From Dysidea avara (lineage: Eukaryota > Porifera > Demospongiae > Dictyoceratida > Dysideidae): 64,000 bases of DNA. Below are positions 16,926 through 57,934 of this stretch, piece by piece (positions within the stretch are counted from its first letter, which is position 1; each line of letters starts with the position of its first letter). Location: the NCBI RefSeq assembly GCF_963678975.1, contig NC_089275.1, positions 17,310,220 to 17,374,219 on the forward strand. Reading direction: 5' to 3'. The position numbers and the translations under genes were made by a program. The notes below the pieces were generated by a model, which made no database searches, was not told the origin of the DNA, and worked only from the letters and a program-made list of their open reading frames with translations.

Positions 16926-17108
16926 CCTGTAGGGAAAGAGGACATGTGATAATTTTCATAAAATATTAGTTTTTGTAAATAACTAAAAAATATCCACAGA
17001 ACTCAGCTCTTGATATCTTCTCCCTTTCTGCAGTAAAGCAAAGACAAGTAAAAGAAACTGTAAGGTTGGCCACATGGCTTTGAAGTATACAATACAAAAG
17101 GAAGTGAT

Positions 17109-17423
17109 ATCTACACCAAAACAGGCAAGCTGTAAAAAAAGGATACAGCCCTCAAAAATCCAGGATGAAAAAATTTGAAATCAAAGGTGGCAGCCAAGTA
17201 ATGACTGTGATGGTAGGTTAATGGCAAAAATTTTAATGATGACAATTCAAATGAATTTGGTGCCAAATCCTAGAAAGCAACACAAATTCACCTCAATTGT
17301 CATTATTAAAATATTTGACCATCACAGTCATTTCTTGGCCACCATCTTTGATTTCACTTTTTTTTCATCATGGCTTTTTGGGGGCCATACCTTTCTTCCC
17401 ACCTTGGCTGTTTTGGTATAGAT
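17109..17423. mobile_element. Palindromic element F1, copy d
   Basis: Inverted repeat of 315 bp, ATCTACACCAAAACAGGC...GGCTGTTTTGGTATAGAT, with more mismatches than other copies. It directly abuts the left end of F2 copy 2 (17427). Confidence 0.75.
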
Positions 17424-17426
17424 ATA

Positions 17427-18053
17427 CCCATCCAAAAACAGCTTATAGCTGTAAAAAAAGTGCGCGTCCAAGTAAAGCAGAGTTAACTGCGACAAAAAGT
17501 AATGATATCATAATGCGGCCATGTGCGAGGGGTGCAAGTTGTAAAATTAATATTAGCTAATCAGATAATACAATGTTATTGTTAAAGTGTTAATGAGAAC
17601 TATGTGATGCTGCTAGTTTTTAAGTGTGTGAGCATCTTCATAAATGCCACATAAATTTAATTCTCAATAAAGCAATGTGTATAGATTTTCTGATAGCAAT
17701 AAATAGTTTGAGTTTGGCCGTCTTTCCTGTATGCGGCAATGCTACGAACAAAGGAAAGGCGGCCAAACTCAAACTATTTATTGCTATCAGAGAATCTATA
17801 CACATTGCTTTATTGAGAATTAAATTTATGTGGCATTTATGAAGATGCTCACACACTTAAAAACTAGCAGCATCACATAGTTCTCATTAACACTTTAACA
17901 ATAACATTGTATTATCTGATTAGCTAATATTAATTTTACAACTTGCACACCTCGCACATGGCCGCATTATGATATCATTACTTTTTGTCGCAGTTAACTC
18001 TGCTTTACTTGGACGCGCACTTTTTTTACAGCTATAAGCTGTTTTTGGATGGG
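17427..18053. mobile_element. Palindromic element F2, copy 2
   Basis: A near-perfect 627-bp palindrome with ends CCCATCCAAAAACAGCTT... and its reverse complement; centre near 17740. The same peptide is read on both strands (MCEHLHKCHINLILNKAM...), which shows the symmetry and not a gene. It is better preserved than the copy at 2109-2744. Confidence 0.9.
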
Positions 18054-18178
18054 ATTTCAATACTTTTTGTTAGAATAAGCAATGCACTGTTGATAACAGT
18101 AGGTGAGTTTCCATGGTTTTGACAGAAACCCCAGATTACAGTGACAGAATATTAAAATATAACTGTAATTTTAGTGGC

Positions 18179-18369
18179 CAGGGCCGCCCACATTGGGGGT
18201 AACTGGGGTATTTTGCCCCCTACCACAGCCCGAAAGGGGCCACTTGAATACCTGTTTAAAGAAAGATCGATATACTCTAATAGAGAAGTCAGGATCTAGA
18301 CCCTTCCTTGCCCTTGGGCCCCTCTTTAACTCTTTTCCCTGGACCCTCTAATTTCTCTGGACGGCCCTG
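18179..18369. mobile_element. hAT MITE with perfect 8-bp duplication
   Basis: Ends CAGGGCCGCCCA and TGGACGGCCCTG, 191 bp, flanked by TTAGTGGC at 18171-18178 and 18370-18377. The homologous position in the 2.7-4.8 kb repeat copy has a single TTAGTGGC and no insert, confirming a transposition event. Same family as 58427-58796. Confidence 0.92.
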
Positions 18370-19678
18370 TTAGTGGCATGCAACTGCAGTCAACTAACAC
18401 CCATTTTAACTAGTAAACCCTTAACAACACTTTGCCTTTCATCTTGTACTGCATTGAAACGATCAAGATACTCTATTAGAGCAGTCACAAAACAGCTGTA
18501 ACACAGCAATCAATAGTTACAACTTCTGCTTAGCATCGGATTGTATAGTTTAAATTACTAGCTACTTACAGATTTTACAATATAAAACTATGGCACTTGT
18601 AGAAATGTGACTGTTCTATTAGAGTATCTCGATCTACTTCAAGCATTGACTAATTCAAGTGAAGAAGCTATGCCCCTGCCAAGAGATCTTGTGAAATGAA
18701 ATGAGAATAGTAAAGAAAAGGCAAGTATGTACAGAGACAATAGAGGGGCGCGTAATTATGTCCTGTTGTAAATAAACGCCTTTAAAATTTATATTACTAC
18801 TAAATAAACGCACCAGAATAGGCTTGTGTGGCTGTTGTCTCCATAGTTGTCTGATTACTTGTCTTTTCGTGTTGAAGGGATTTAGTCGCAATTGGTGAGT
18901 TTAACTATACATGTATTTGTGTTGTAAAACTTAATTGTAAAAAGGCAATTAGCACATATCATGATAAACATGTATTTGTCACAGTAGAGTCTCTCACGAA
19001 GTCACGATTATTACGAGACATTGGACTAGGGTAAAAAATTTACTGCTATATTTAGAGGTTGTAGCATTTGTATATCTTAGTATCTTAATAAATAATCCCC
19101 CATGATCACTAATCACTAATAGTACAGTGAAAACTGGTCATTATTCAGGCCGTAGGGACAAAATTTTCTAACCTTGCCTTTTAAAGAGGTGGCTGCATTA
19201 TGCGGCCTTAAAAAAGGTAAGAAGCATGCTGTTCTAACTGGCTATAGAGATGGATTTAGTGTATGACAGCGTATGAAACAGTGAGTGCTGGCAGCAAGGG
19301 GGCAGCCAATCTGTTAGAGCACCAAAAGCACTGCTTCAGACATAGGCAGTTGACTGTCAGCCCCAAGTGTAAAAAGTTTCACTATTGGTCCTTATAAGCT
19401 CCTGATGAAGAAAGTGATGAAGTCATTATCCATAGGATATATTTTTCAGAGTATCCATTTCAGTTCTACAATATAGTAGCCAAGCATAAGATGAACATAA
19501 CACAGCATTCCAGTAGTTTAGTGGTGACCACAACACTGCCTGAGTTAAACTGTGGTGAGATTTGAGACTACCAGAAGCCCTGGAATGTCTTCAACACATG
19601 AAATACCAAATATCTAATGCCTGGCTTTCATCCACAGTGGACCTGTCTTGGTGGCCACTTGTACAGAAGGGAAACAGC

Positions 19679-19790
19679 TGCCACACAGTCTTGCGAGCGA
19701 AACAGCTAGTTGCCACACCCCTTAATTATCAATTTGTAAAATCTTTAGCAAAATTGTGTGTGCGAGCAAGTGCGATGTGGCAGTACCATG
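19679..19790. mobile_element. MITE F5, partial copy
   Basis: Only the right half of F5 remains, ending GTGCGATGTGGCAGTACC; the left arm is deleted relative to 4378-4607. Confidence 0.6.
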
Positions 19791-19982
19791 TATATGGTTG
19801 CTGCCTAGCAGTGACACATCACGAGTATTGAAGTCACAATGCGTTACTGTATCATCCATCTAAATACAATCTCTGAATGTGTCATTTTGTGTAGAGAGCA
19901 ATCTTCCACAAGAAGTGACCTGCAGGTTTCAGTGTATGTTGTTAACCATTAATATTGTTCACAATATTGTGAACTATATGTA

Positions 19983-20158
19983 CAGTGAAACCTCACTTAG
20001 TGGCCACCTCTTTAATAAGACCACCTCATTATATTGGCCACCTCTAGTAGGTCCCAAATATAGCTAAGCATTACTTATGACCTCATTAATAAGGCCACCT
20101 TGTTATTCAGGCCAAATTTTTTGGTCCCACAGCCTGCCATATTAATGAGGTTTCATTG
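19983..20158. mobile_element. pogo/mariner-like MITE
   Basis: Ends CAGTGAAACCTCA and GAGGTTTCATTG, 176 bp, flanked by TA (19981-19982, 20159-20160). TA duplication with CAGTGAAACCTC-type ends fits Tc1/mariner-pogo. It is non-coding. Confidence 0.8.
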
Positions 20159-20197
20159 TACTTATGTGAATTTTTATTTTTCGTAACTTTTCTTCAG

Positions 20198-20902
20198 GTT
20201 TACTGATGGGCACTATGAAGCATTGTTGACTGGTATGTGTATAATGTGGTGACTTGAAATGCTAAAACAGTACGTAGCATGTCTTGTATGTACATGTAAT
20301 ATGTTGTAATGTGTCCACACATCCACACATCTTAGAAATAAATATAATTGTATTCTCTATAAATAGTCAGTTCCATTGTGCCACTGGGTCATAAGTTGGT
20401 TGAGTATGGATCATCCAGGGCACATGAGTCACATTTTGTCCTGGCCAAGTGGATCTCATCCACTGACAGAATATACAGGATCAGACCACGTGTATAAATT
20501 ACGGTGGAACTTGTTTATTGCCACCTTCACTCACTCAGCAGGTAACAGTGTATAAATTCTCAATTGGAATTGGCTTTTCAAGAGTGGTTGTCTTTCTATA
20601 CTAGTGGCCATTAAGATAGGTTGTACTGATAGAGTGTACATACTAGAGATGCAACAATATCCTCCACTTAGTGTCGTTTGATAGTGATGCAATGGAGACT
20701 ATGTATTATTGCATTTAAATACTATACTATTATATTGCAACTCTAGGACGTATTTATAACAGGAATGTTTGTTAACTGTTTAGACATACTGGAGCCACAC
20801 CCACTCATCTGGATTCTACAAATGGAGTCGTACCAACTTGTTGTCATCATACTTACTCGTTACTCCCATTGTGTTTGGATGAATATACATGCTGTCATGT
20901 GA
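20198..20902 (+). CDS. Candidate 3' end of an unknown gene (two exons)
   Basis: Exon 20198-20232 has a strong acceptor (TTTTCTTCAG) and donor (GTATGTGT) and reads FTDGHYEALLT. Exon 20784-20902 follows TGTTTAG, matches in phase (1 then 2 bases) and reads DILEPHPLIWILQMESYQ... to TGA at 20900-20902. No domain is recognised and no start is seen. Upstream lies the pogo-like MITE and the 18-19.9 kb repeat. It may be a gene remnant, and part of the region could be transposon-derived. Confidence 0.3.
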
Positions 20903-21159
20903 GACTTGCTACCATGGCGGGCCACTGGAAAACATTTGCATAGCAGTTATATTACAGTCATTATTGTACAATTCTTACATTATTGTTGTGAAAAGTGTTT
21001 GGTATTCATGTGTCTCCTCTGTATGTTGTAATTACATGTGTAATTTTGTGTGGGGGTGCTATAAAATGCAATAATGCATGGTGACAATTGTATTAGGCGA
21101 TTTTGCACACTTCCTTTTAAGCTAGCTACATGTGCTAATTACTCACAGCTTGTGTCAAC

Positions 21160-21445
21160 AACTGGTAACCGCAGTTGTACTCTTGTGTTATTCTTTAAGC
21201 CGCGCCCTTAGAGGACAAATTATGTGGGGGCGACTAATTTCAAAACCAAGGATGGTATGCAGCACCATAGATTATATCTATGGATTATAATCTATGGCAG
21301 CACACTTCTTGGTGGCTATATGTACTGATTAACTACATAGAGCGCCAGTTCATCAATACCCAGTGACCGCAGTTGTGCTCTGCGTCATTCTTTAAATTCC
21401 GAGTAAAATTCTTAGACAGCAAATGACGTGGGGGCGACTAAATTC
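21160..21445 (+). repeat. Direct duplication (~80 bp) around a hairpin
   Basis: CCGCAGTTGTACTCTTGTG through GTGGGGGCGACTAA at about 21170-21237 is repeated at about 21367-21440 with minor changes. Between them lies a 32-bp hairpin at 21265-21296. Confidence 0.7.
21265..21296. mobile_element. 32-bp hairpin flanked by 6-bp repeats
   Basis: CCATAGATTATA and TATAATCTATG form an 11-12-bp stem with a short loop. The hairpin is bounded on both sides by GCAGCA (21259-21264 and 21297-21302), as if it had been inserted. Confidence 0.5.
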
Positions 21446-21881
21446 AAATTTCAAACTAGCCATTCTCGAAAACAAATGTTTCAATCTGAACGAAACTTTC
21501 AGAACAGTTTAAAGACACATTGCCCTACATGCCAAGCAAGTATTGCGGAAAACAACAATCTGGGATTTGTATTTGGCCTCTAGGTCGACTGAGGACAACT
21601 GAAACTTTGTTTGGTGCTGAAATCACGACTGTAGGGTAATCATGTATGGTGAAATCGATGATGTGAATCTTGAGGTGATTGAGTGAATACTGAGCGATAA
21701 CAGGGCGATCAATGTTCGGAATGCACAAAGGAACACAAGGCATACATCTGCGGTTGCGTCTAACCGCATGCGATAAAAATAAATAAAAAATGAAACTTCC
21801 CCTTTGATGTCGGCAACCTCGATCACGAAACAATCGGCAAGGATTTGCTTCACTGCTTGTGTGGTAGTTACTAGTGACACG

Positions 21882-21914
21882 ATGAGTTCAACTCCAGAGT
21901 TTCAGAGGGATAGC
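21882..21914 (+). CDS. Possible first exon, 11 codons
   Basis: ATG followed by STPEFQRDS and a consensus donor GTAAGTGAC. No second exon is found before the element terminus at 22056. It is recorded because the donor is strong, but a short ATG-to-donor stretch can arise by chance. Confidence 0.2.
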
Positions 21915-22056
21915 GTAAGTGACGGGTGGATTACAGGAAGGCCGAATTTGACAACGTTCGTTCTTGTAAAATCCTCACATAGTGGTCGCGTCATTTATTG
22001 TCTGCGGCGCACGTTTCTGCTTTACTGGCCGCGCGACTCACTACCGTGAGTCTTGA

Positions 22057-23224: not shown

Positions 23225-23309
23225 TCAAGACTCATGGTAGTGAGTCACGCAGCCAAGAAACTACAAAGCGCACGCCCAATTAAAAGACGCGCGGCCACTA
23301 CTGTGAGTT

Positions 23310-24240
23310 ATTTACGTGTAGGGCCGGTTTCACAATATTAGTCCTAGATTATGCAACATCTCTCAATAGATTTGTATTGCATTACGTGATTAAAAAATCT
23401 TTAGGAGCTGTCATCATCATAGTTTTCTTGCGACTTCGCTAAAATAAAAAAGTAACCATCGCAAAATAAAAAATAGCCGTATTTCACTTTATTTCTCTAC
23501 CTTATGTTACAACTACTGTCATGTTATACCAGTCAACATAGCCGTGTTTGTATAGTCCATCTAGCACTGACATTATCCAATCCTGGTTTGCCTATACGCG
23601 TATTTTCTTCAATCAAACCTCTAATCCCTACAATAACTTTTAAAGACACGACGTGGACACAAACTCTAATGCCTGATAAACAAGTTGTGACAGAGTGCTG
23701 AACCGTAAGTTCCCTAGGGATGGCGTTTTAAGCAGAAATCTTTTAAATTCCATTTAGTGCCACACCCCATGCAAGCGTTTATAAATCGCCAGTTGTCTTA
23801 TGGTGTGAAGAACAAAATCACTAGCAAAGGTGCTTTAAGCATACTCTTCAATTCTCTATTTACATGTAATTTTTAATAGATTAACCACAAAGGCCGGTAA
23901 GGTGAATACAAAAGGTAACAAGCCTTTAGGGGTTACCACCTCTATGTAGTGTGTGTACCATGTAGCTTGTGTTGTGGCTTTCATTAAGTGTTATGCACAC
24001 ACAAATGGTGAACAAAATTTTGTAATGGATTGCTCGAATGTGGTTGGTGGTGTTGTGGCTCGAATGTGGTTCGTGGTTTGCCAGTGACCATGTATGAGTT
24101 GGGGTTGTTCCACACAACTTGCACAATATTCAAATTTCATGATGGCCATGAAAATTTCTTGCCATATGGTAAACATACAACAATGTGTAACAACGTTAAT
24201 CAAAATCACATCAAGACTTGACTAAAAATAGTTCCAACAA
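23310..24240. other. No gene supported
   Basis: It starts with AGGGCCGGTTTCACAATA, which resembles a MITE end but has no partner. The rest has short frames on both strands without splice or domain support. Confidence 0.45.
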
Positions 24241-25860
24241 TAGTGATGATTTCTTGTATGTCAGCATGACGATACTGAGACCTGTAAAAGAATAAGCAGG
24301 CACTGAAGTTAACCTTAAATTAAACACTCATGCAACTGACCTGGAACATCGGTCGCAGCACCAACAACACTTGTTTCGATATCTGATGACACAATCCAGC
24401 AGGCACTGAATTAAAAGAGAATGTACAAAAAATCAATATGCCGGGCTGTATCAATAATAGCATGGATAATCAAAATGAACAAAAATTATATCCCAAGCTA
24501 AGTGAATGAATAACATAACTGTTGGGTAAGCATGTCAAACCTGAACATTAGGACATTAGTCAAACAAAAGTACGCTATCACAACTTGGTCATAATACAAT
24601 GTTTGTACCACTGGACTTCACACTGGTTGCCCAAAAATTGTGCCATTCCAGGACAATAGTATAATTATCAAACAAATAGTTACTGCAACACAGAAGGCTT
24701 ACTGTTGCACTGTCTAAACTGATATACCATAATTTAAAAACATAACAGGTGGGCATTAAATACAACACACTTAACATCTGGGTACAAGGAAAAAATCACT
24801 AACATCACAACATGTAAACTGACCTGGAAATTAACACCCTTGATGCCACTACAGTCTACACTGCATATTTGTTTGAATCCATTAACACTATGCCCGATAC
24901 ATCTAAGTAGACTGACCTGCAATTCACATCACTAGTATACAGTGATAATTGATAACTACAAAAACAACAATTGCAATAATACAATTCTTCAGTACGTCAA
25001 CTGACCTGAAATTCATGACACTTGATACCAAGACCTGTAAAAGAATAAGCAGGCACTGAAGTCAACCTTAAGTTAAACACACATGCAAACTGACCTGGAA
25101 CATATCGGTCACAACACCAAAGACACCTGTTTCGATATCTAACGAAACAATCCAGCAGGCACTGAATAAAAAGAGAATGTGCAAAAAATCAATATGCCAG
25201 GCTGTACCAATAAAGGATGGATAATCAAAATGAACTAAAAAATATATATCCCATATGCAGGTTAAGTGAGTAACATAACTGTTGGGTAAGCATGTAAACC
25301 AGAACATTAGGTCATTAGTCAAACAAAAGTACGCTATCACAAACTGGTCACTGATAATTGATAACTACAAAAAGAACAATTGCAATAATACAATTCCTCT
25401 GAACGTTAACTGACCTGAAATTCATGACACCTGCATGTATCTTTGTTCTTGCATGGTCTCAACTTACATATGTATCGTGATCACATTCAACTGCTAGTGG
25501 ATAAACCAGTATGACCAGATGGCCTGCAAAAACCAACAAGCAGGTGTTAAATACAATACACCTAAAGCCTGGAATATGAAAAATATTATATAAGCATTAT
25601 TCCACACTGATATAGTAATAGATTATAGGATGTTGTGGAACTTGCCTAAATGTATAAACTTGAACATGAAGACAACTGCATAATCTGGACACTTGGAATT
25701 GTCCAATACCTGATGAACAAGTTGGTACTAATGACATTCACTTCAACATTTTATCCCAGCTGGGTGAATCTCTTGTAACTGAGTAAAAAGGTGTTTATTT
25801 TCCACCTGCAACCAAAGTTCTACATTCTGTGGTTGAGTGTACATAAACTGACCTGGAAAA
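24241..25860 (-). repeat. Duplicated cassettes with recurrent CAG|GTCAGT sites
   Basis: A block at about 24270-24590 is repeated at about 25028-25350, and 24940-25030 is repeated at 25349-25440. On the minus strand seven positions read CAG|GTCAGT(T/C) (exon ends at 24341, 24824, 24917, 25006, 25095, 25415, 25853), most preceded within 15-70 bp by a plausible acceptor. Best exon-like pieces are 24405-24341 (65 bp), 25161-25095 (67 bp), 24860-24824 (37 bp) and 25034-25006 (29 bp). The first two read ACWIVSSDIETSVVG-like and ACWIVSLDIETGVFG-like. This may be a many-small-exon gene or an exon/intron tandem relic; no domain is recognised. Confidence 0.5.
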
Positions 25861-25989
25861 TCAGTATGCCATACGGGTATGGAAATGGTTCCTTTCCCTC
25901 TGTTGTGACATTACTTACAGCTGACTGGTAAATGATCATCGATGTCCCCGTGGACCCCAACAATGAGTATATCAATAACTTCACAAGTT

Positions 25990-26070
25990 GGAATGAATTT
26001 CCTTTCAACATGTGGTGGAATGAATTTCCTTTCAACATGTGGTGGAATGAATTTCCTTTCAACATCTGGT
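25990..26070. repeat. 27-bp tandem repeat, three units
   Basis: Three near-identical 27-bp units (GGAATGAATTTCCTTTCAAC + ATGTGGT). Since 27 is a multiple of three, both strands remain open through it. No gene around it can be supported. Confidence 0.9.
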
Positions 26071-26438
26071 GGACAGGTCCAAAAACCCTATTGCACAAAC
26101 ACGGTGAATCAGTGTGTGGCGATGTGACACGTTGCACAAACTTCACTCCTCGTTTCGTTAGCATTCAAGACTGGCATATATCATAGAGTACCTCAGTATT
26201 CTTGACTCTTACTTCTTCGAGTGTTGCTCAAGCGATGTAGTTTCTCACGAGGGGCTCGAGTTTTTCATTAAAGTTGAGCCGATTAAAGTACGCCTTACCA
26301 TCCAGTTACATTCTTAAACCATTCAATTTAAAACCACGTATCACGAGTGTCCGCTTAAGGTAATTAGGGACTTTCCACGAGATTTCCCCTAAATAGATCA
26401 TGTGTTAGTTGTCAATCCGGTGGATTCTGGTGGTATAC

Positions 26439-26669
26439 ATGGTTCAACAATGCGGTAAGTGTACTTTAATGTAGTATAAGCTGTCAATAATTGTTTGTGC
26501 ACTGCTAAACTAAGTTATTTTTGTGTGATAAGCATGCTTGAGGAAGGGTCTGGGGGATGAGACTAATGTTTTGACAGCAGTTGATGATGGCCAGGCAAAG
26601 AACTGCGAGAAGAACTACTGTGATAGTGTGATAGTAGGGAAAAGTTCCCACCCCTATAGCTCTGCCTAG
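26439..26669 (+). CDS. Candidate two-exon small gene
   Basis: Exon 26439-26454 (ATG, 16 bp) ends at the strong donor GTAAGTG. Exon 26533-26669 starts after GTGATAAG and is in phase, reading CLRKGLGDETNVLTAVDD... to TAG, 50 residues in total. The sequence before the donor is also open in another frame (VNPVDSGGIHGSTMR), so the real start may differ. No domain is recognised. Confidence 0.28.
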
Positions 26670-26889
26670 GGGCATTAACTAGCATTATCTACAGCTACTG
26701 TATTATGTTGCTGATATGTACATCCGGGCCAAGAATAAAGGTGAAAGTGGTAGTAAGGCTCAATCCTATTATTCTGCTGAACAGGCAAGGGAGTCTGAGA
26801 CTCTGGGGGCATGCTCCCTCAGGAAAGTGTAAGTACTACAACTTTTTTGTTTTAATTGCTTCATCAAGTATAAAAATTTCAGTGAAAAG

Positions 26890-27245
26890 GTGATGATTGA
26901 GGCTCTGGTCTTATGCACTGGTTGGAGTGGTTGTATCGATACTGCACTGTGACATCCTTGAGGGGTTAGTGCTGGCATTGTCCATGGCAATACTATTCCA
27001 TCTCCCCGAGTCTTGATGATTGAGTCCTCCACTCCTTTCTCTGCTGCTCCAATCCTGAAGTTGTGACCACAGTCAAAAGGTGATGATCGAGGCTCTGGTC
27101 TTGCATCTATACTGTACTGCAACACCCTTGAGGGGTTAGTACCGGCATTGTCCATCGCAATACTGGTCCATCTCCCATATACAAGTCTTGATGGTTGAGT
27201 CCTCTATTCCTTTCTCTGCTGCTCTAATCCTGAAGTTGTGACCAA
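26890..27245 (-). repeat. Tandem duplication (~180 bp), exon-like on minus strand
   Basis: Two copies (about 26890-27075 and 27078-27245) share GAGGCTCTGGTCTT, CCTTGAGGGGTTAGT, GGCATTGTCCATGGCAATAC and CCTGAAGTTGTGACCA. On the minus strand the stretch RIGAAEKGVEDSIIKTR and its relative IRAAEKGIEDSTIKT are open, following GTCACAACTTCAG, a possible acceptor. Frames shift between copies; I cannot name a product. Confidence 0.55.
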
Positions 27246-27448
27246 AATATTAAAAAATGGTTATAACATGATAAATGATTATGATGATAACAATTACAAA
27301 TGTATTTATAGCTGTGTAGCAACTGTGAACTAATTAGGCACTTGCAAGTTTAATTAGGTGTCTGAAGCATTTAACATGCACAGATATGAGATATATTCGT
27401 CACATGCAGGCAGTAAAGATAGATTTACTCTAATAGAACAGTCATACT

Positions 27449-27482
27449 ACACCGTAAATTCATACTTCCGAATTTACGGTGT
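27449..27482. repeat. 34-bp perfect-stem hairpin
   Basis: ACACCGTAAATTC and GAATTTACGGTGT form a 13-bp perfect stem around an 8-base loop, just downstream of a CTCTAATAGAA motif (27426-27444). Confidence 0.8.
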
Positions 27483-27620
27483 TATGAAACAATCATTATT
27501 ATGTATGGACTTTACTGACTCTCCAAGATAATATTCTGCAATAATGTTAATTGCTCATTTCCAAAAAAAAATTACCTTTTAAACCAAATGTAGAATCTAT
27601 CACTGACAAAAATGAGTGAT

Positions 27621-28432
27621 ATCCACCCCAAAAAACCTTCGCTGTAAAAAAGGCGCACCCAAGAAACTACAAGTACCTGGAACCCAATGTAAAAAACAAA
27701 AAGAAAAAACAGCTCAGCTGAAGTGAAAAGTAACTGGTAACTTAAAGAGCTGATATCTGAAGCGGCCAAGAATACAATTACTAAAGTTTAATCCATGCAA
27801 GAACACCTTGGCTATAAAATAGGTGTGTACATGAAAGTAACTGGCAACTGAAATGGCTGATATCTGAAGCAGCCAAGAATGAATGGTCATATACAACTAA
27901 TTCAAAAATTTAACAATGAACCTTTATAATTCAGCTGTGTTCTATATTCACTCTTGCTGCATCGCAAAGTAATTTCTTTTAACTCTAATTGGCTGGTAAT
28001 TTGGCCGCCTTTTTTTTGCTCTATTACACTGACTATTAAAAAAGGCAGCCAAATTACCAGCCAATTAGAGTTAAAAGAAATTACTTTACGATGCAGCAAC
28101 AGTGAATATAGAACACAGCTGAATTATAAAGGATCAGTGTTAAATTTTTGAATTAGTTGCATATGACCATTCATTCTTGGCCGCTTCAGATATCAGCCAT
28201 TTCAGTTGCCAGTTACTGTCATGTACACACCTGTTTTATAGCCAAGGTGTTCTTGCATGGATTAAACTTTAGTAATTGTATTCTTGGCCGCTTCAGATAT
28301 CAGCTCTTTAAGTTACCAGTTACTTTTCACTTCAGCTGAACTGTTTTCTCTTTTTGTTTTTACATTGGATTCCAGGTACTTGTAGTTTCTTGGGAGCGCC
28401 TTTTTTACAGCGAAGGTGTTTTTGGGGTGGAT
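27621..28432. mobile_element. Palindromic element F3
   Basis: A palindrome of 812 bp. Ends ATCCACCCCAAAAAACCTTC and its near complement, then GCTGTAAAAAAGGCGC on both sides. Arms of about 390 bp meet near 28025. Matching frames on the two strands (MLHRKVISFNSNWLVIWLPF type) come from the symmetry. There is no transposase. The ends resemble F1 and F2. Confidence 0.9.
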
Positions 28433-32645: not shown

Positions 32646-32968
32646 GTGTGGCTGTGACTGCTTTATTAGAGTGTCTAAACCTCACTGTTTATCAAGAGTG
32701 AGCTGCACATAAGATAAAAAGGCATGGTTACCATGTCCTGTTTTCTACTGTTAGACAATTAAGGGGTGTGGTGATGCAATTCTGTACATTAAGGGTGTGG
32801 TGGTGTGTTCTGATTGTTTAAGCACCATGTCAAGCCATCTCAAAAGTACCAGAAGTTTTAGTGCACAACTTCTAATTTATTCCAATTGTCCAATAAAGAA
32901 TGTTTGACAATTCACAAAAACAATAATGATATAGACTATACTTTATGGTGCTACAAGTGAATTTTGGA

Positions 32969-33138
32969 CTAAGACCAAGTGGCACCAAATTCACCTGAAT
33001 TGTTGCTATTAAAAATTTTACCATTAAGCTACCATCACAGCCATTTCTTGGCCACCACCTTGGATTTCACATCTTTTTTCACCATGGCCTTTTTGGGGGC
33101 CGTACCCTTTTTTACAGCTTGGCTGTTTTGGATTAGAT
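32969..33138. mobile_element. Single arm of palindromic element F1
   Basis: Right-hand arm only (CACCAAATTCACCTGAATTG ... GGATTAGAT). It faces F1 copy b across core 1, giving an inverted pair of arms with a 390-bp spacer. The plus-strand frame through it is a repeat by-product. Confidence 0.8.
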
Positions 33139-33140
33139 AC

Positions 33141-33531
33141 TATATAACAAGACCAAGTGTTTTGATTTTTGGATATATGTATTAGTCATGTAAAGGAGTG
33201 TGTCAATTCTACAGTGACAGGGTAATCAGTAAACAACAACTATTTGATGATACTGTTTGGTACAACACTGACTTTTCAAAATGGCGATTCTACAAATCTG
33301 TTCACAAAATGATTATGATAATGCATTCAATTTTAACTAAACATTTCTGCTTGTGTAATATCTCTTTAGAGATAGGTCAATACAATTCAAGTGCTACTAA
33401 AATATATTGCACAAATGTTCATTCATATGTAGAATTACAATATTACAAAGAAAGATATTTGAAAGCAATGTTTATTGTTGAACAACGAAAAGCTAGAGCA
33501 ATTGTACACTATGGCACATCACATAATTATT
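33141..33531 (+). repeat. Core-1 repeat, uninterrupted copy
   Basis: Matches the two halves of 22057-23224 that flank the F7-containing insertion. The plus-strand frame MCQFYSDRVISKQQLFDD... runs from here into F1, but the 22-kb copy is stop- and frame-disrupted and the frame ends in palindromic DNA, so I treat it as fortuitous or a dead remnant. Confidence 0.75.
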
Positions 33532-34000
33532 ATCTAATCCAAAACAGCCAAGCTGTAAAAAAAGTGTGCGGCCCTCAAAAAGGCTATGGTGAAAAAAGAT
33601 GTGAAATCCAAGGTGGCGGCCAAGAAATGGCTGTGATGGTAGGTTAATGGTAAAAATTTTAATAACGACAATTCAGGTGAATTTTTGTGCCGCTTGGTCT
33701 TGGCACAAAATTCACCTGAATTGTCATTATTAAAATTTTTACCATTAACCTACCATCACAGCCATTTCTTGGCCGCCACCTTCAATTTCACATCTTTTTT
33801 CACCATAGCCTTTTTGAGGGCCGCACACTTTTTATACAGCTTGGCTGTTTTGGATTAGATTTCATTTTTTTTTGTATTTGTATACCCCAAAGCCGGCCAT
33901 AGGCCGGCTTTGGGACTTTTAAACCTATCTTTTTTTCTTTACCACAGGAAGAAGAAAAGATGAAGTAGATGTACTTTAAATATTTTATCAGTAAATGTAC

Positions 34001-34035
<35 letters not shown>

Positions 34036-35288
34036 CATATATTGATTACAGAAATCTCCATGGTGGTTTCTTTGTAACTGAACACTCTACAAGGTGACTT
34101 CTTCTAGATGCTCTCTCTACAGGTGATTTGTTTGCAGCTGAACTCTCTACATGATGGTTTCTTTGTAGCTGAAGTCTCTACAAGGTAACTTCTTCTAGCT
34201 GATCTCTCTACAGGGAGATTTGTTTGTAGCTAAACTCTCTACATGGTGGTTTCTTTGTAGCTGAACTCTACAAGGTGATTTCTTCTAGCTGAACTATCTC
34301 TTTCCATAGTTGCATGAACTCCCTACAAGGTAACTTCTTCTATCTGATCTCTCTACAGGGTGAATTGTTTGTAGCTGATCTCTCTACAGGGTGACTTGAT
34401 TGTAGCTGATCTCTATACAGGTTACTTGTTTTTAGCTGATCTCTTGAATTCTCTTCGGGTGACTGCTCTATTAGGATGACTGCTCTATTAGAGTATCTCG
34501 ATCTCGCACTTGCTGCACCAAGTTGGATTTCGTGTTATAACTCCGTGGCTTTAAGTCTGATTCTTCTTCACCATTGATGATCCTTTCTAAGATGATTACT
34601 CCATCTGTACAACGATTTTCAAAGCATCACCCCAAGCGGTTTATCTGGTAGGCGTGGCAAGCAGTCGTTTTTTTATTAGCTAATCTCGATTGCATAATTG
34701 TTACACACTGTTGGTTTTTTCGTTGTATCGTCCTGGTTTTAGCTCGATTTCTTTCAAACCACAAAAGGTTTGAGGTTCAAAGTTAACCTATTCACCCACC
34801 GATTTTCAGCTTCTTCCCTTACGCGGTTTACCCTGTAGGCGTGCCAACATATTGGTGTTAATTTTCGTGAATAATCACTCATATCTCTTTGCCTGTTTAT
34901 CGTATTCCAGCCAAAGTTGGTACTGAGATGCACCTTTATACCCCCCTTCTGTGTGCCAAATTCAAGGCAATCAGATATGGCGTTCGTGTTTTATAGCAGT
35001 TTTTGTAAGTGTGCGACAAGAAGAAGAAAATAAGAAGAAAAAAAAACCAAGAAACTAAGCCAATTTTTGAAGTCGCATATCTCGGGAACGCCTGAAGCGA
35101 TTTCGCTCAAATTTGGAATGTGGAGTACTGAAGTGGTAGGGAGTGTCCACAGCAAACATCGTCTTGTTTCGTCAAGGCAGCACAGAGCTACGGAGGTGCG
35201 AAAATTGCATTTTCTTTCTTCCTGTCAACTCACGGATGTTGTGCACGCCGGCTTCTTGGGCCACACGACACATTACCGTGTGTCTTGA
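33532..35288 (-). mobile_element. M element, copy b (reverse, compact)
   Basis: Minus-strand order: terminus TCAAGACACACGGTAATGTG (complement of 35269-35288), ~900 bp of degenerate direct repeats (GGTTTATCTGGTAGGCGTG, GGTTTACCCTGTAGGCGTG and similar in the plus direction), CTCTATTAGAG motifs (34461-34503), short minisatellite (34065-34445), (AT)n, GC hairpin 33886-33914, palindrome F1 33532-33860. A frame at 35067-35288 is not a gene; it lies in the conserved non-coding terminus. Confidence 0.8.
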
Positions 35289-35830: not shown

Positions 35831-35835
35831 TATTT

Positions 35836-38800
35836 AAACACATGGTAGTGTGCCGTGCTGCCCAAGAAGCCGGCGCGCCACACCGTGAGTATATTAACAG
35901 GAAGAAAGAAAACGTCATTTTCACACTTTTGTATCTCGATGATACCTTATCCGATTGAAACCAAAATTTCAGCAGAGTTGCCTGCCAGCTAGGTGAGTCT
36001 ACATGCCAAATTTGAAATAAATCACTTAAGCCATTTCCGAGATGTAAGCGGCCAAAGTTTCTTTTTTCTTCGTTTTTTTTTTCTTCTTTATCTTTTTGCA
36101 CACTTGCAAAAATTGCTATAAAACGCAAAAGCGTGCTCCGATCGCCTTGAAATTTGGCACACAGAAAGGAATTCCAAAGGCGAATCCTAGCATCAAATAT
36201 GGTGCAAATCCGATGAATGGTCCAGGAGTTATGACCGATTATTCGCGTAAAATAAGATGGATTTGTTGTCAAGCCTACAGGTAAACCGCTTCATGGAATG
36301 AGTTGAAAATTGCTATGTAGATGGAGTAACCATCGTAGGAGTGCCTTTTGGTGGTTTGAAAGGAATCAAGATTAAGACTACGGAGATATGACACAAAATC
36401 CAACCTGTGCCACAATTACGCGATCGATTTTTAGCAATAAAAAAGTATTAGTTTTTACGCCTACTAGGCAAACCGCTAAAAGCAATGAGCTGACAATCGG
36501 TGTATAGCTGGAATAATCTTCATAGAAAGTCCTTGCAGTGGTATAGAAGAATTGGATTACAAACCACTGAGTTATGATTCGAAACCCAACTCCGTGTAGC
36601 AAATGCGAGATCGAGATACTCTAATAGAACAGTCACCCTAATAGAGCATTCAGCTAATTTATTTACTCCATTATAGAATTATATTACATTACAAGTTATT
36701 CTGTAGGGACTTCAGCTGCAAACAGTTAATCTTATAGACAGTTCAGCAAGAAGCAAGTCACCCTGTGGAGAGTTAAGCTACAAATATATCACTGTAGAGA
36801 TTCAGAACATTACAAGTCACACTGAAGAGAGTTCAGCTATAAACAAGTCATGCACCCTGTAGAAAGTTCACCTACAATTAAATCACTCTCTAGAGAATTC
36901 AGCTACACACAAGTCACTGTGGAGAGAGTTCAGCTACAAACAAATTACAATATAGAGAGATCAGCTACAAACAAAACACTTTGCAGAGAGTTCAGCTACA
37001 AACAAATCAACCTTTAGAGTGATCAGCAACAAACAAATCAACGTATAGAGAGATCAGCTAGAAACAAATCAACCTGCAGAGAGATCAGCTACAAACAAAT
37101 CAGCTTGTAGAGAGATCAGTTACACACAATTCAACCTGTACAGAGATAAGCTAAAACAAATCAACCTGCAGAGAGATCAGCTACAAACAAATCACCTTAT
37201 AGACAGTTCAGCTACAAACAAATTACCCTGTAGAGAGATTGACTACAAACAAATCAAGTTGCAGATAGATCAGCTACACACAAATCAACTTGTAGAGAGA
37301 TTAGCTAGAAACAAATCACCCTGTAGAGAGTTCAGCTGCAAACAAATCAATGTGCAGAGAGATCAACTACAAACAAATCACCCGGTAGAGAGATCAGCTA
37401 GAAACTGGACACAATGTAAGGAGTTCAGCTACAAGCAATACACCCTGTTGAGATTTCAGCTACAAACAAATCAACCTGTAGAGCGTTCAACTAGAAACAA
37501 ATCACCCTGAAGAGAGGTCAGCTACAAAAATCACCCTGTAGAGAAGATCAGCTAGAAACAAATCACCCTGTAGAGAGTTCAGCTACAAACAAATCAACCT
37601 GCAGAGAGATCAGCTAGAAACTAGACACAATGTAAGGAGTTCAGCTACAATCAAATCACCCTTTAGAGAGTTCAGTTACAAACAAATCAACCTGCAGAGA
37701 GATCAAATCACCTTATAGAGAGTTCAGCTACAAACAAATTGCCCTGTAGGGAGATCAGTTACAAACAAATCAACCTGCAGAGAGATCAGCTACACACAAA
37801 TCAACTTGTAGAGAGATCAGCTACAAACAAATCACCCTGTGGAGATCAGCTAGAAACTAGACACAATGTAAGGAGTTCAGCTATGAGCAAATCACCCTGT
37901 AGAGAGTTCAGCTAAAACAAATCAACCTGCAGAGAGATCAGGTACAAACAAATCACCTTATAGATAGTTCAGCTACAAACAAATTACCCTGTAGAGAGAT
38001 CGGCTACAAACAAATTAACCTGCAGAGAGATCAGCTACACACAAATCAACTTGTAGAGAGATCAGCTACATACAAATCATCCTGTAAAGAGATCAGCTAG
38101 AAACTAGACACAATGTAAGGAGTTCAGCTACAAACAAGTCACCCTGTAGAGAGATCAGCTAAAAACTAGACACAATGTAAGGAGTTCAGCTAGAAGAGGT
38201 CACCTTACAGTGAGTTCAGCTACAAAGAAACCATCATGTAGAGAGTTCAGCTGCAAACAAATCACTCTGTAGAGAGTTCAGCTAGAAAAAGTCACCTTGT
38301 AGAGAGTTCAGCTACAAAGAAACCGCCATGAAGAGAGTTCAGCCTCAAACAAATTACCATGTAGAGAATTCAACTACAAACAAATCGCCCTGCAGAGGGA
38401 TCAGCTAGAAGAAGTTACCTTGTAGAGAGTTCAGCTACAAAGAAACCATCATGTAGAGAGTTCAGCTACAAAGAAAGCACCATGTAGAGAGTTTAGCTGC
38501 AAACAAATCACCTGTAGAGAGTTCAGCTAGAAACAAATCACCCTATAGAGAGATCAGCTAGAAGAGGTTACCTTGGAGAGAGTTCAGCTACAAAGAAATC
38601 ACCACGTAAAGAATTCAGCTGCAAACAAATCACCCTGTAGAGGGATCAGCTAAAAGAAGTCACCTTGTAGAAAGTTCAGCTACAAAGAAACCATCATGTA
38701 GAGAGTTCAACTACAAAGAAATCACCCTGTAGAGAGTTCAGCTGGAAGAAGTCACCTTGTAGAGAGTTCAGCTACAAAGAAACCATCATGTAGAGAGTTC

Positions 38801-39437
38801 AGCTACAAAGAAACCACCATGGATGTAGAGAGTTTAGCTGCAAACAAATAACCTGTAGAGAGTTCAGCTAGAAACAAATCACCCTGTAGAGAAATCAGCT
38901 AGAAGAGGTCACCTTGTAGAGAGTTCAGCTACAAAGAAACCATCCTGTATATAGTTCAGCTATATTTTAAGTCACCCAGTAGAGAGATCAGCTACTAAAA
39001 AATATCCTGTGGGGAATAATGGGCATGTAATAAATATATGTATATAATTTGTATAATTACTAATAAAATCAAAACTAATTGAAGTATTAAAAGTCTTCTG
39101 TAAGTTATTTTCTTCTTCCTGTGGTAACTAAAAAAACACATGGGTTAAAAAAGCCCCAAAGCCAGCCATAGGCTGGCTTTGCAATATACAAATACAAAAA
39201 TAAGTGATATCTAATCAAAAACAGCCAAGCTGTAAAAAAAGGTGCGGCACCCCAAAAGGCCATAGTGAAAAAAGATGTTGGCACCAAATTCACCTGAATT
39301 GTCGTTATTAAAATTTTTACCATTAACCTACCATCACAGCCATTTCTTGGCCGCCACCTTGGATTTCACATCTTTTTTCACCATGGCCTTTTAAGGGGCC
39401 GCACCTTTTTTTACAGCTTGGCTGTTTTTGATTAGAT
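35836..39437 (+). mobile_element. M element, copy c (largest)
   Basis: Order: terminus CACATGGTAGTGTG and GCCCAAGAAGCCGG, ~750 bp with repeats sharing GTAAACCGCTTCATGG and GGCAAACCGCTAAAAGC, CTCTAATAGAA motif (36608-36636), 31-bp minisatellite (36640-39000), tail with GC hairpin (39153-39181), F1 (39209-39437; left arm shortened). Arms of copies b and c are inverted relative to each other around core 2, making a ~5.9-kb inverted structure. Non-coding. Confidence 0.85.
36640..39000 (+). repeat. Largest 31-bp minisatellite array
   Basis: About 2.36 kb, roughly 75 units. Variants alternate between AAATCAACCTGCAGAGAGATC and AAATCACCCTGTAGAGAGTTC, and higher-order blocks recur, for example GAAACTAGACACAATGTAAG appears at least five times. 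The second half is dominated by AAGAAGTCACCTTGTAGAG / AAAGAAACCATCATGTAGAG pairs. Confidence 0.95.
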
Positions 39438-47240: not shown

Positions 47241-47280
47241 TTTGTTAACTTTTTTTGTAAATAATTATTATGACTGGTGA

Positions 47281-48670
47281 ATCCATGCATACTGCATCTG
47301 AAATTGCACCATTCTCCACAGCTATATTGATTATCATCTGAAAAATACAGCATCCATTATGCTTCGTTGTCAGCTACGTATATTCAACCCGTTACACAGC
47401 ATTTCGAATCAAGAACTGTTTAAAAAGCACCTCTGAAATCCACACATACCAAAAGAAATAAATGGTGCCGCACGCCCCAGTTATACCAATTATTGTCTAA
47501 AAAGTCAAGTATCCATTACGCTTCATTGTAGGCTATGTTCAACCCATTACACAGCAGTACAAATCATGAACTGATGGAAAAGCACCTCTTTAATCAAAAT
47601 AGCCACTATGAAAAATACGGAGGATTTCTATTATAATGGAAAGCTATCATGTGCTATCGTCAAATCAGTACTTTTCATTGCCAGCAACAATAAATGAGAC
47701 ACAAAGGAGGACACTTGTAAGTGCATATACGTATGACCCTATTTTGGAAAACCATACATTTCCTTTTTATAGTTACAATGAGGCACTAAGTGGTTATCTA
47801 GATTGTGTGAAAAAACTTTGTGATGATGTATTGAAGCATTCCAATGATAGGTATAGTGATCAAACGTGACATATTGATGACAAATCACTTTTTTGATAAG
47901 ATCTCTATTCTTACAATCTAAAATTGATGAAATGAGATCCTTGATAGTTTAATCATGTGTTCTTTGTGCTTTCCCAAATTAAATTGCCTGTATTATTGTC
48001 TAAAGACAAGAAAATGTTTGGTTTTGAGAATGAATAATTCACCCAAATTGTAATTTAATTGCTGTCCCATGCATTGTGAAACTACTACATGGTCTGATAT
48101 AATTGAGCACATCTCCTAGAATAAAGAAACTATGGGTGTGAAATTTTACAGCAAGAAGGCTTAATCATTGCCTTATCAAAATATGCAAAAAAAAGTTAAT
48201 TTTAGAAAAACTGCTGAAATTTTAAATTGTACATTCCCACAAATTTTGCATATGCTCAAATGTATGTTTTTCCAAAATATGGTCACATTTAGAATGCATT
48301 GCATGTACTGCGGTATGCCAAAAGGCACCTCTCAGGCTGAAGCGGCATCAAAGAATGAAAAAATCGAGCCCATAATCTTAGCCATTGTTAAGTTATGCTT
48401 GTCTGAAGGCATCAGTTACTCAATCAGTCAGTCAGTAAAAAATTCCATTAAATAATTTTTTTATTATTTAAATTCCATAGCAACTTGTTGAAAGCATTTC
48501 AGGTCGATCTGAAAGCTTGTTTGGGTTTAGTTTTGCCTAACCAATACTGCCTCATCGTTGTCAAGGAAAATTGAGGGTGGATTTTGGGTGATGTTACGTT
48601 GTAGACCATGCCTACTCCTTTGTGGTCCCTACTATACAGTACTATTATAGAACAATTGTTGATTGTATGA
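47281..48670 (+). repeat. Dispersed repeat R, copy 2, interrupted
   Basis: Matches 54600-54786 joined to 57935-58410 (ATCCATTACGCTTC, CATTACACAGCAGTACAAAT, ATGAAAAATACGGAGGATTT, GACACAAAGGAGGACAC, TATGCCAAAAGGCACCTCTC, CAGTCAGTCAGTA + AAAATTCCATTAA). It carries about 560 bp (47722-48290) not present in the 58-kb copy. The ATG frame MKNTEDFYYNGKLSCAI (from 47610) stops at TGA here, but in the 58-kb copy it runs to a GTAAGT donor. Confidence 0.75.
47773..47850 (+). CDS. Candidate 78-bp exon, unknown
   Basis: Acceptor TTTCCTTTTTATAG and donor GTATAG enclose an open reading YNEALSGYLDCVKKLCDD and a few more residues. It lies in the part of repeat R copy 2 that is absent from the 58-kb copy. No domain is recognised. 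Confidence 0.3.
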
Positions 48671-54785: not shown

Positions 54786-55984
54786 TCAAGACACACGATA
54801 GTGTGTCGTAAGGCCCAAGAAGCCAGCGCCACACCGTGGGTATATTGACAGGAAGAATGAAGACGTCATTTTCACACTTTTGTGTCTCGGTGATCCCTTA
54901 TCCGATTGGAACCAAATTTGCTACAGAGTTGTCCGCCAGCTAGGGGAGTCTACATATCAAATTTGAAGAAAATCGCACCAGCCATTTCCGAGATGCGAGC
55001 TGCTAAAATTTCGATTTTTTTTCTTCGTTTTTTTTTCTTTGTGTTTTCACACACTTGCAAAAATTGCTATAAAACGCAAACAGGCACTCCAATCGCCTTG
55101 ACATTTGGCACACAGAAAGGGAGTCCAAAGGTAAATCCTAGCTTAGGCGGTGGAAAGGGGGGGTCTAAGGGGCTGAAGCCCCCCCTCAGAATGATATCAC
55201 ACCGAAATTATCTTTCTTGGAGTGGGACTGAAAACCGTGATAAAGATAAAGATACTCTAATAGAGCAGTCACTCTAATAAAGTAGTCACTGTGTAGCGAG
55301 CTATGTAAGGATTTTTATGTAGTTTATCAGCTAGAAATGGTAGCTGGTGAGGTGGAAAGCTATTGTTAGTTGGTTGTGACCTTTTTTTGGGTCTCACCTT
55401 ATCAAACTAGAGATAAGCCTGGGTCAGTCCAGCCCCCCCCCCTCATATCAACTACTTCCTCCGCCCCTGAATACTAGCATCAACTTTGGTGCAAATCCGA
55501 TGAATGGTTCGAGAGTTATGACCGACTATTCACGTAAAACAAGATAGATTGTTGTCACGCCTACAGGGTAAACCGCTTCATGGAATGAGTTGAAAATTGC
55601 TATGTAGATGGGTAACCATCGTAGGAGTGCCTTTTGGTGATTTGAAAGGAATCGAGATAAAGACCATGGAGATATGACACAAAACCCAACCTGTGTCACA
55701 ATTACGTTATCGATTTTTATAAATAAAAAAGTATTAGTTTTTACGCCTATTAGGCAAACCGCTTAGAACAATGAGCTGAAAATCGGTGTATAGCTGGAAT
55801 AATCTTCATAGAAAGTCCTTGCAGTAGTACAGAAGAATCGGATTACAAACCACTGAGTTGTGATTTGAAAGCCAACTACACGTAGCAAATTGAGATCGAG
55901 ATACTCTAATAGAACAGTCACCAGAGCATTCAGCTACATTTATAACTTATTCCAGTATAGAATTCTATTGCATTACAAGTTATT

Positions 55985-57045
55985 CTGTAGGGAGTTCAGC
56001 TGCAAACAGTTAATCTTATAGACAGTTCAGCAAGAAGCAAGTCACCTTGTAGAGAGTTCAGCTACAACCACATCACCGTGCATAGAGTTTGGCTACAAAG
56101 AAACCATCATGTAGAGAGTTCAGCTGCAAACAAATCACCCTGTAGAGAATTCATCTACAAACAAATCGCCCTGTTGAGAGATCAGCTAGAAGAAGTCACC
56201 TTGTAGAGAGTTCAGCTACAAAAACCACCCTGTAGAGAGTTCAGCTGCAAACAAATCACCTTGTAGAGAGTTCAGCTATAAATAAGTCACCTTGTAGAGA
56301 GATCAGCTACAAAGAAACCATCCTGTAGAAAGTTCAGCAACAAACAAGTTACCCTATAGAGAGATCAGCTAGAAACAAATCATAGTGTAGAGAGTTCAGC
56401 TACAAACAAATCACCCTGTAGAGAGTTCAGCCACAGAAAGATCACTGTGTAGATAGTTCAGCTAAAAGAAGTCACCTTGTAGAGAGTTCAGCTACAAAGA
56501 AACCACCATGTAGACAGTTCAGCTGCAAACAAACCACCCTGTAGAGAATTCAGCTACAAATAAATCGCCCTGTAGAAAGATCAGATAGAAGAAGTTACCT
56601 TGTAGAGAGTTCAGCTACAAAGAAACCATCATGTTAGAAAGTTTGACTACAAACAAATCACCCTGCAGAGAGATCAGCTAGAAGAAGTTACCTTGTAGAG
56701 AATTCAGCTACAAAGAAACCATCATGTATAGAGAGTTCAGCTGCAAACAAGTCACCCTGTAGAAAGATCAGCTAGAAGAAGTTACCTTGTAGAGAGTTCA
56801 GCTACAAAGAAACCATCATGTAGAGAGTTCAGCTACAAACAAATCACCCTGTAGAGAGATCAGCTACAAACAAGTCACCCTGTAGAGATATCAGCTAGAT
56901 ACATGTTACCTTATAGGGATCAGCTACAAACAAATCACCCTGTAGAAATATGTGTTGGAAACAAATCACCATGTAGAGAATTCAGCTAGAAACAAGTCAC
57001 TCTAAAGAGTTTAACTACAAACAATGGGAGATTCAGCTACAGTTC
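55985..57045 (+). repeat. 31-bp minisatellite array
   Basis: About 34 units, mostly GAGAGTTCAGCTACAAAG/C with AAACCATCATGTA or AAATCACCCTGTA spacers. Same variant types as the second half of the 36.6-39.0 kb array. Confidence 0.93.
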
Positions 57046-57255
57046 AGGTATGTATAAGAAGTGACCTTATTACCTACAGTATGATTATCTTTCATTCTTT
57101 AATATACAAATATTTTTAATCACACAAAAAACTGTACACAACATTTCTTCCTTTGTTCCACAATTCCTACAGAAAAGAAAAAAAAACAAGTTAGAAGGAA
57201 GCACCAAAACCAGTTAATGGCTGGCTTTGTGGCTTGCAATACAAAAAGAAGTAAT

Positions 57256-57934
57256 ATCTAAGCCAAAACAGCCAAGCTGTAAAAAAAGAGTGCAGCCCCC
57301 AAAAAGGCCAGGATGAAAAAAGATGTGAAATCCAAGGTGGCGGCCAAGAAATGGCTGTGATGGTAGGTTAATGGCAAAAAATTTAATTACGACAATTCAG
57401 ATGAATTTGGTGCCGTTTCCTAGTGGAGGAGGCAACGCAAATTTTCACCTGAATTGTCGTACACTGTGAAAAAAGAGGGATATAAGATGGTATTTCCAGT
57501 GGCTTATTGAATACAAAAAAGCTTGATATAACCTGTATTATACTAACAATCTCATGTAAGGCTTTAATTAATGTGTTAAACATACTGAAACCATATATGT
57601 GATGGTATAGTGTGGACATTATATTTGATATAAGCTATTTTAGGTAATGTGGTAAATAAACTGAAACCATATATGTAATAGTATAGTATGCATTATACTA
57701 AAGTATAACATGAGTATAATACAGGGTTTATATTAAGGCTTATTTGTATTCAATAAGCCACTGGAAATACCATCTTATATCCCACCTTTTTCACAGTGGT
57801 AATTAAAGTTTTTGCCATTAACCTACCATCACAGCCATTTCTTGGCCGCCACCTTGGATTCCACATCTTTTTTCATCCTGGCCTTTTTTGGGGCCGTACT
57901 CTTTTTTTTACAGCTTGGCTGTTTTGGCTTAGAT
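57256..57934. mobile_element. Palindromic element F1, copy e, split by insertion
   Basis: Arms 57256-57461 and 57799-57934 form the usual F1 palindrome (ATCTAAGCCAAAACAGCC ... GGCTTAGAT) when the insert at 57462-57798 is removed. Confidence 0.85.
57462..57798. mobile_element. CACTA-like MITE nested in F1
   Basis: Ends CACTGTGAAAAAAGAGGGAT and the complement ATCCCACCTTTTTCACAGTG, inverted arms of about 60 bp, 337 bp in all, flanked by GTA (57459-57461, 57799-57801). CACTG ends and a 3-bp duplication fit EnSpm/CACTA. The target sequence is known from other F1 copies. Non-coding. Confidence 0.88.

Follow-up and report, generated by a model that had tools for sequence, protein, structure and literature searches.

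A numerous coding-free repeat of the sponge Dysidea avara with hairpin ends and a long 3' palindrome, Helitron-like in its probable mode of movement

Among the closest described counterparts of the repeats reported here are Helitron2-type elements, whose end plans, as given in the relevant parts of two papers (PMC3627910, PMC5148889), are similar to those of three repeat families, M, N and P, present in a window of 64,000 nucleotides (the whole stretch of DNA analysed) from the sponge Dysidea avara. As described by Bao and Jurka (2013; PMC3627910), Helitron2 has hairpins at both ends and a T at the 5' end, as do M, N and P, and a short asymmetric inverted repeat whose 3' copy lies just inside the 3' hairpin, an arrangement shared by P and N2 (a copy of N) and found more weakly in M; the Helitron-1N1_CRe family of the same account also inserts without duplication, as the three sponge families do apart from a possible 2-bp AT. 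M, N and P differ from Helitron2, however, in that their 5' repeat lies at positions 19-42, internal to the hairpin, rather than 0-2 nt from the end as part of it, that they insert at A^T and not at TTTT^T/C, that their 3' palindrome measures 0.3-0.8 kb and that no RepHel gene is linked to them. FoHeli1 and FoHeli2 of Fusarium (PMC5148889) likewise begin with TC followed directly by a small hairpin, and their insertion at TNAT^A involves the same ambiguity over a T, while a FoHeli4 inserted 2 bp from another recalls neighbouring M and N insertions; in contrast to M, N and P, the 3' end of FoHeli1/2 is ATTTT, coding copies are known, and the passages on these elements mention no long palindrome. 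The non-autonomous Helentrons HINE/Cg_HINE and DINE-1 are, in the sections of PMC4067079 and PMC7492417 that describe them, similarly coding-free; they carry inverted repeats in subterminal position and a stem-loop at the 3' end, and frequently an array of tandem repeats in the centre, such central repeats being found also in family M. Their preference, however, is for T-rich or TT sites, and their 3' palindromes are short, whereas M, N and P insert at A^T, not at the T^T of Helentrons, and end in a giant palindrome. Canonical Helitron1, as outlined in PMC5148889, shares with M, N and P the 5' TC, A^T insertion and a 3' hairpin 10-12 nt from the end (12-13 here), but ends in CTRR and not in TRGR or GGGA.

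Outside the rolling-circle elements, the IS607 serine transposons (PMC4058570) resemble M, N and P in having the same dinucleotide at both junctions (window copies N1 and N2 excepted), but they are bacterial, their dinucleotide is GG, and the parts of that paper dealing with them mention no such hairpins. The terminal inverted repeats and fixed duplication of DDE transposons are absent from M, N and P, in which the two extreme ends have just TC...GA in common and no duplication beyond AT is shared. Among the rolling-circle groups, M, N and P depart from each in one defining feature: from Helitron1 in having no CTRR, from Helitron2 in the position of the 5' repeat and from Helentrons in not inserting at T^T. 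D. avara holds a very numerous repeat whose end plan falls between the rolling-circle groups compared. No paper on the M repeat was found in the open-licence PMC literature, and the words transposable, Helitron, rolling and minisatellite are absent from the main text of the genome paper on D. avara (PMC12909245).

Within the window, family M is represented by the complete copies A, B and C and by partial copies (Table 1). Self-alignment of A, B and C gives a common order of hairpin end, ~190-bp direct repeats, CTCTAATAGAG, 31-bp minisatellite, GC hairpin and palindrome. The existence and order of three complete copies, as proposed in the preliminary description, were thereby recovered, with two coordinates corrected: B starts at 35833 rather than 35836, and C ends at 57933 rather than 57934, a position that comes from site reconstruction and carries a one-base ambiguity. 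The partial copies D, E and F appear in the self-alignment at the places where they had been listed. From the end alignment and printed flanks, A, B and C start with TC (TT in B) preceded by A, and end in GA followed by T. The 5'-TC is present at five of the six left ends in the window, B being the exception; copies outside the window were found via TCAAG and provide no independent test of it. In element C the outer arm of the palindrome, F1, terminates in the hairpin ACAGC-TTG-GCTGT plus 12 nt (TTTTGGCTTAGA), and F1, which had been regarded as one module among others, is indeed part of M but constitutes its 3' terminus itself.

Table 1. Coordinates of elements, element parts and related sites in the window
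Feature	Position	Strand	Remarks
Element C, family M	54786..57933	+	full length 3148 bp, A^T insertion; termini and joined-flank alignment
Element B, family M	35833..39436	+	3604 bp, minisatellite ~75 copies
Element A, family M	33533..35288	-	1756 bp
Element D, family M	1..588	+	right end only, window edge cuts the rest
Element E, family M	12676..15214	-	left end present (15214), right end missing
Element F, family M	15277..17422	+	right end present (17422), left end missing
Element G	32924..33137	+	just the right-end half of F1
Left-end hairpin of C, TCAA-GACACAC-GATA-GTGTGTC	54786..54807	+	-7.1 kcal/mol, 0/200 shuffles as good
Left subterminal inverted repeat of C, weak	54808..54826	+	not significant in C (100/300 shuffles); cf. 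less diverged M copies
~190-bp direct repeats D1, D2 of C	55540..55930	+	self-alignment
31-bp minisatellite of C	55985..57024	+	~34 copies
Right-end palindrome F1 of C	57255..57933	+	arms 94.9% over 138 bp
Uninterrupted relative of C's site	47254..47726	+	alignment of joined C flanks
Host spacer S1, paralog of 22057-23224	33138..33532	+	right edge: A in one paralog, reversed P in the other
Element P, sister family	23225..28431	+	5207 bp; palindrome 27621-28431, arms 96.2% over 395 bp
Element N2, sister family N	17427..22056	-	4630 bp; palindrome 17427-18053, arms 99.0% over 302 bp
Element N1, second N copy	2109..4745	-	right end at 2109; other end not found

The proposal that this composite moves as one unit, as an insertion without coding capacity, is borne out by exact termini, by four reconstructions of pre-insertion sites and by the pairing of left and right ends. 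An empty site for C had been placed near 47470-47510, and the joined flanks of C do align through the uninterrupted relative there, reading CCCCAGTTA^TATCAATTATC against the uninterrupted CCCCAGTTATACCAATTATT. Another reconstruction comes from the spacers S1 and S2, each of which occurs twice in the window; between them lies A in one paralog and, 6 bp away and in the opposite orientation, P in the other. Oppositely oriented at this one paralogous site, A and P each rebuild CACATCACATAATTATTATTACCAMCTTC, and the two pre-insertion sites agree over CACATCACATAATTATTATTACCA onward with one substitution (CCACCTTC/CCAACTTC), which independently supports the end positions and the lack of any duplication beyond the AT step. 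When the joined flanks of three insertions were searched genome-wide, two N insertions, both among nine paired full-length copies, gave uninterrupted sites, and for an M copy (L069) the matches listed were to a common repeat. The flanks of one N insertion match an uninterrupted place 170 kb away on contig C1 over 60 of 60 bases to the left and the first 19 to the right of the junction; the second N insertion lies within a common repeat, two other copies of which match 13 bases to the left and 27 to the right, unbroken. All four comparisons (C, A/P and the two N insertions elsewhere) point to A^T insertion with no longer duplication. The right flank of element D, whose left flank lies outside the window, repeats in tandem units at 1222 and 1869, which is half a test of the same kind.

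Flanking bases agree with this target. In the window, A precedes the left end in 6/6 cases and T follows the right end in 9/9. Among N copies elsewhere, A and T are found in 9/9 full copies each, and of 20 further left flanks 19 carry A and one carries G; among seven M copies examined elsewhere, A precedes the left end in all four in which it was located. AT stands at both junctions in the nine full N copies elsewhere and in A, B, C and P, while the full AT is missing at the right end of window N1 and N2 and in one of the 20 further N left flanks. A TA target duplication was ruled out, since the two flanks have no TA in common in A, P and N2. As A[TC...GA]T can equally be written AT[C...G]AT, an AT-exchanging recombinase or a 2-bp duplication would fit these junctions too. 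In the former case, a serine (IS607-like) or tyrosine recombinase would exchange AT through a circular intermediate, and the hairpins and inverted repeats would be its binding sites. M, N and P are all readable as C...G between AT steps, the self-complementary AT leads one to expect either orientation, as in A and P, and IS607 elements are, in the portions of the papers concerned, proposed to use a matching dinucleotide via a circle (PMC4058570) and described as having no terminal inverted repeats or target duplications (PMC6188088). Nonetheless, we regard such a recombinase as unlikely in view of the N junctions without a full AT and of two features that the account of Helitron2 ascribes to rolling-circle elements (PMC3627910), namely a hairpin at either end and a 3' repeat immediately internal to the 3' hairpin.

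The sister elements P and N2 were found by following relatives of M flanks. Their left ends read TCAAGACTCAYGGTAGTGAGTC, and their right ends are palindromes of 811 bp in P and 627 bp in N2. The plan common to M, P and N consists of a 5'-TC, a terminal hairpin, a subterminal inverted repeat, the body, the inverted repeat again and a hairpin 12-13 nt from the 3' end. Family N is highly uniform: 40 of 40 scored left-end matches (among 1,183 first-look candidates) are 98-100% identical to the window copy, 40 of 40 scored right ends (among 1,374) are 99-100% identical, and nine paired full-length copies all read A|TCAAGACTCACGG...GGATGGGA|T. The likeness of the left ends to the window copy indicates that N moved recently and that its enzyme can be hunted.

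At the left end, TCAA is followed by a 7-bp stem, a 4-base loop and the inverted repeat; at the right end, the same inverted repeat is followed by the hairpin ACAGC...GCTGT, with an imperfect stem in P and F, and by 12-13 bases. The left-end hairpin folds in five of the six window left ends, where 0-8 of 200 shuffles fold as well, that of B being poor (66/200). Covariation in the left stem amounts to one compensatory change (A-T to T-A, in P and N2 versus M), which is not above shuffles (60/500). The 5' inverted repeat lies inside of the hairpin and does not form it. In P it is CCAAGAAACTACAA (14/14 bases) and in N GCGCGKCC-AGTAAAGCAGA (~22 bp in N2), with no shuffle of 300 reaching either, and in P and N2 it occupies positions 19-42 of the left end and 33-55 of the right end. 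These repeats are family-specific: that of P scores 28 on its own right end and 19-20 on those of other families (reached by 20-33 of 300 shuffles), and that of N scores 29 on its own and 13-14 on the others. The corresponding repeat of M, GTGCGGCCC, was recovered at left-end positions 22-36 and right-end positions 33-48 in 27 of 32 comparisons (four left ends against eight chosen right ends), most of them not significant (2-5 of 200 shuffles as good for one right end, 10-70 for the others), and in the window's own M copies it is not significant against shuffles.

The terminal 3' bases are TAGA in M, TGGA in P and GGGA in N (9/9 full copies), and a CTRR end was not seen in any of the three. 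The loose resemblance to Helitrons initially noted, from a TC start and insertion at an A/T step with no CTRR, thus matches the data, and is further supported by the hairpins at both ends and by the subterminal inverted repeats, which stand out in P and N but less so in M. The 2-bp reading of the junctions, in which M, N and P would be cut-and-paste (DDE) elements with an AT duplication, would account for AT on both sides of the nine full N copies and of A, B, C and P. It appears quite improbable, however, given that the extreme ends carry no terminal inverted repeats, TC...GA being their sole commonality, and that the subterminal repeats lie at unequal distances, starting at 19-29 on the left and 33-39 on the right; moreover, none of the DDE superfamilies is known to duplicate a 2-bp AT.

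All three families end in the 3' palindrome, whose inner arm adjoins ~ACAAAAARRARTGATA. That of element A folds at -188.5 kcal/mol, compared with a shuffle mean of -37.2. In A, C, D, N2 and P the two arms of a palindrome agree at 94.8-99.0%, and in F (77.5%) and N1 (83.9%) they have drifted, while the outer arms of F1, F2 and F3 align between families over just 12-44 bp. With arms alike within a copy and dissimilar between families, the palindromic layout seems to predate the families, and the two arms appear to change in concert. What speaks for a homogenisation of the arms, as judged from such comparisons, is that dissimilarity of F1, F2 and F3 together with the N2 arms, which are 99.0% alike to each other versus 88.5% to N1; the tree of M arms gave no starred branches and no resolved grouping by copy. 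Such arms, divergent across families but matching inside each copy, could serve as a natural test of palindrome homogenisation. Element B retains about half of its inner arm, and in an M copy elsewhere (L070, C1:36536100-36541100) the palindrome stops near the loop, with the inner arm there and the outer arm gone.

The palindromes F1, F2 and F3 could be taken for stand-alone foldback elements inserted near the ends of unrelated repeats, with M as a nested composite. The palindrome has A|TC at its own start and GA|T at its own end, the half copy G stands alone, and at 18 distinct F1 loci (derived from 30 of 9,947 right-end matches in the genome) minisatellite words were absent on the body side within ~1.5 kb in three; the partner arm was not found within 420 bp in 3/18. 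Yet those words are present at the other 15 loci; the inner junction, ~ACAAAAARRARTGATA|TC with variants, is common to M, N and P; left and right ends pair; and the four site reconstructions require the palindrome to lie within the unit. We hold this alternative to be very improbable, and a stand-alone F1 was rejected as the main reading on the basis of the 15 loci and the end pairing. Neither the minisatellite nor CTCTAATAGAG is confined to M: CTCTAATAGAG is found elsewhere in the window too, and an array of 31-bp units at 4781-5758 is situated within or next to an N copy. We also observed CTCTAATAGAG or a near form in short 25-27-bp tandem pairs outside M, for example at 2956, 43812 and 58512.

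Genome-wide, the 25-base M left end occurs exactly at 5,821 places (2,968 + 2,853) in 551 Mb, and the 28-base right end, including the following T, has 9,947 exact matches (4,970 + 4,977), mostly two per palindrome; both patterns read backwards gave 0 matches. At ~3 kb per copy, M would make up ~3% of the genome. A one-sided excess of 3' ends was not seen, as the right-end matches, at about two per palindrome, compare with 5,821 left ends. Among the matches listed in the first 4.85 Mb of C1, an exact right end lies ahead within 7 kb for 22 of 47 exact left ends, only behind for 3 and in neither direction for 22; with flipped orientation it lies ahead for 7, and 500 random placements give a mean of 4.2 and a maximum of 12.

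Overall, we favour, with modest confidence, the view that M, N and P belong, as non-autonomous families, to a single DNA transposon group, and that their elements are each mobilised as one whole through a rolling-circle-like (HUH, Helitron-type) mechanism. M is accordingly described as Helitron-like in how it works, and is left outside Helitron1, Helitron2 and Helentron because AT at both junctions fits an AT-exchanging recombinase equally well. In such a mechanism, a transposase would nick at the A^T-flanked 5' TC end and one strand would be displaced as far as the 3' hairpin, where the long palindrome could fold into a large stem on that strand; the displaced strand, or a circle made from it, would then join an AT step. 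Within-copy conversion or template switching may keep the palindrome arms alike, and the minisatellite would be passive cargo that expands and contracts. It is also possible, if doubtful, that these families represent a distinct eukaryotic transposon group outside Helitron1, Helitron2 and Helentron, marked by AT exchange, a hairpin at the 5' end and, at the 3' end, a giant palindrome that homogenises itself; its enzyme may be a non-Helitron recombinase.

Potential partners for a Helitron-type mechanism are present in the genome: 150 scored Helitron_like_N matches among 230 candidates mark rolling-circle transposase genes, with open frames of up to 2798 aa, and one RepHel gene has DUF6570, PIF1 and OTU domains. 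The longer autonomous copy with a Rep/helicase gene that the preliminary description suggested seeking did not emerge, no RepHel gene being tied to M, N or P ends in the loci examined. Among the matches listed, none of 40 scored M left ends, 40 scored N left ends and 100 further M left ends on C1 lies less than 77 kb from the 150 Helitron_like_N matches, which tells against a nearby RepHel partner. An M/N-type left end was likewise not found in 30 Rep loci with 1.5-kb flanks (one TCAAG hairpin, in L033, lies inside the reading frame), in two 10-kb RepHel loci, at the edges of an OTU-bearing RepHel family (one imperfect TCAAG hairpin lies inside the shared stretch) or up to 3 kb upstream of two other RepHel genes. 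One locus (L073), read by eye, resembles canonical Helitron1, its RepHel frame being followed by a GCGC hairpin and CTAG|T, and two others (L071, L072) hold RepHel copies of Helitron type that include DUF6570 and OTU domains as well as ~100-bp tandem repeats of their own.

Several insertions lie close to others. F and N2 stand end to end, 4 bp apart; at C1:52623419-52623679 (L085) an N left end, belonging to one of the nine full N copies, faces an M left end head to head at a distance of 2 bp; and at C1:4248223-4248282 an M left end follows an M right end by 8 bp in the same direction. Insertion beside existing ends may be commoner than chance.

The window was also searched for genes and other repeats. 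Rfam gave no match at gathering cut-offs, no tRNA was found, and collections of viral contigs and genome contigs gave no matches. Pfam gave one match on 10 window ORFs, to Death: 49963-50448 (-) and 48706-49620 (-) are pieces of a Death-domain gene, for which 104 related proteins were found, and the latter ORF, over 80% of its length, matches a D. avara protein at 100% identity. At 591-2107 there are ~2.4 tandem copies of a ~633-bp unit, whose interior resembles S1 and at one boundary of which lies the right end of D. A 36-bp tandem array beside element E (12191-12500) is weakly related to an array at 5803-6215. Small palindromes at 22324-22481 and 45843-45999, with ends TTAAAGCATAGCC, are probably another short inverted-repeat element. 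Finally, 30854-31511 and 44778-45439 form an 87% duplicate with a TC-plus-hairpin (TCAGTAAGTACAGTAGTACTTA at 44831, minus strand) that resembles another left end.
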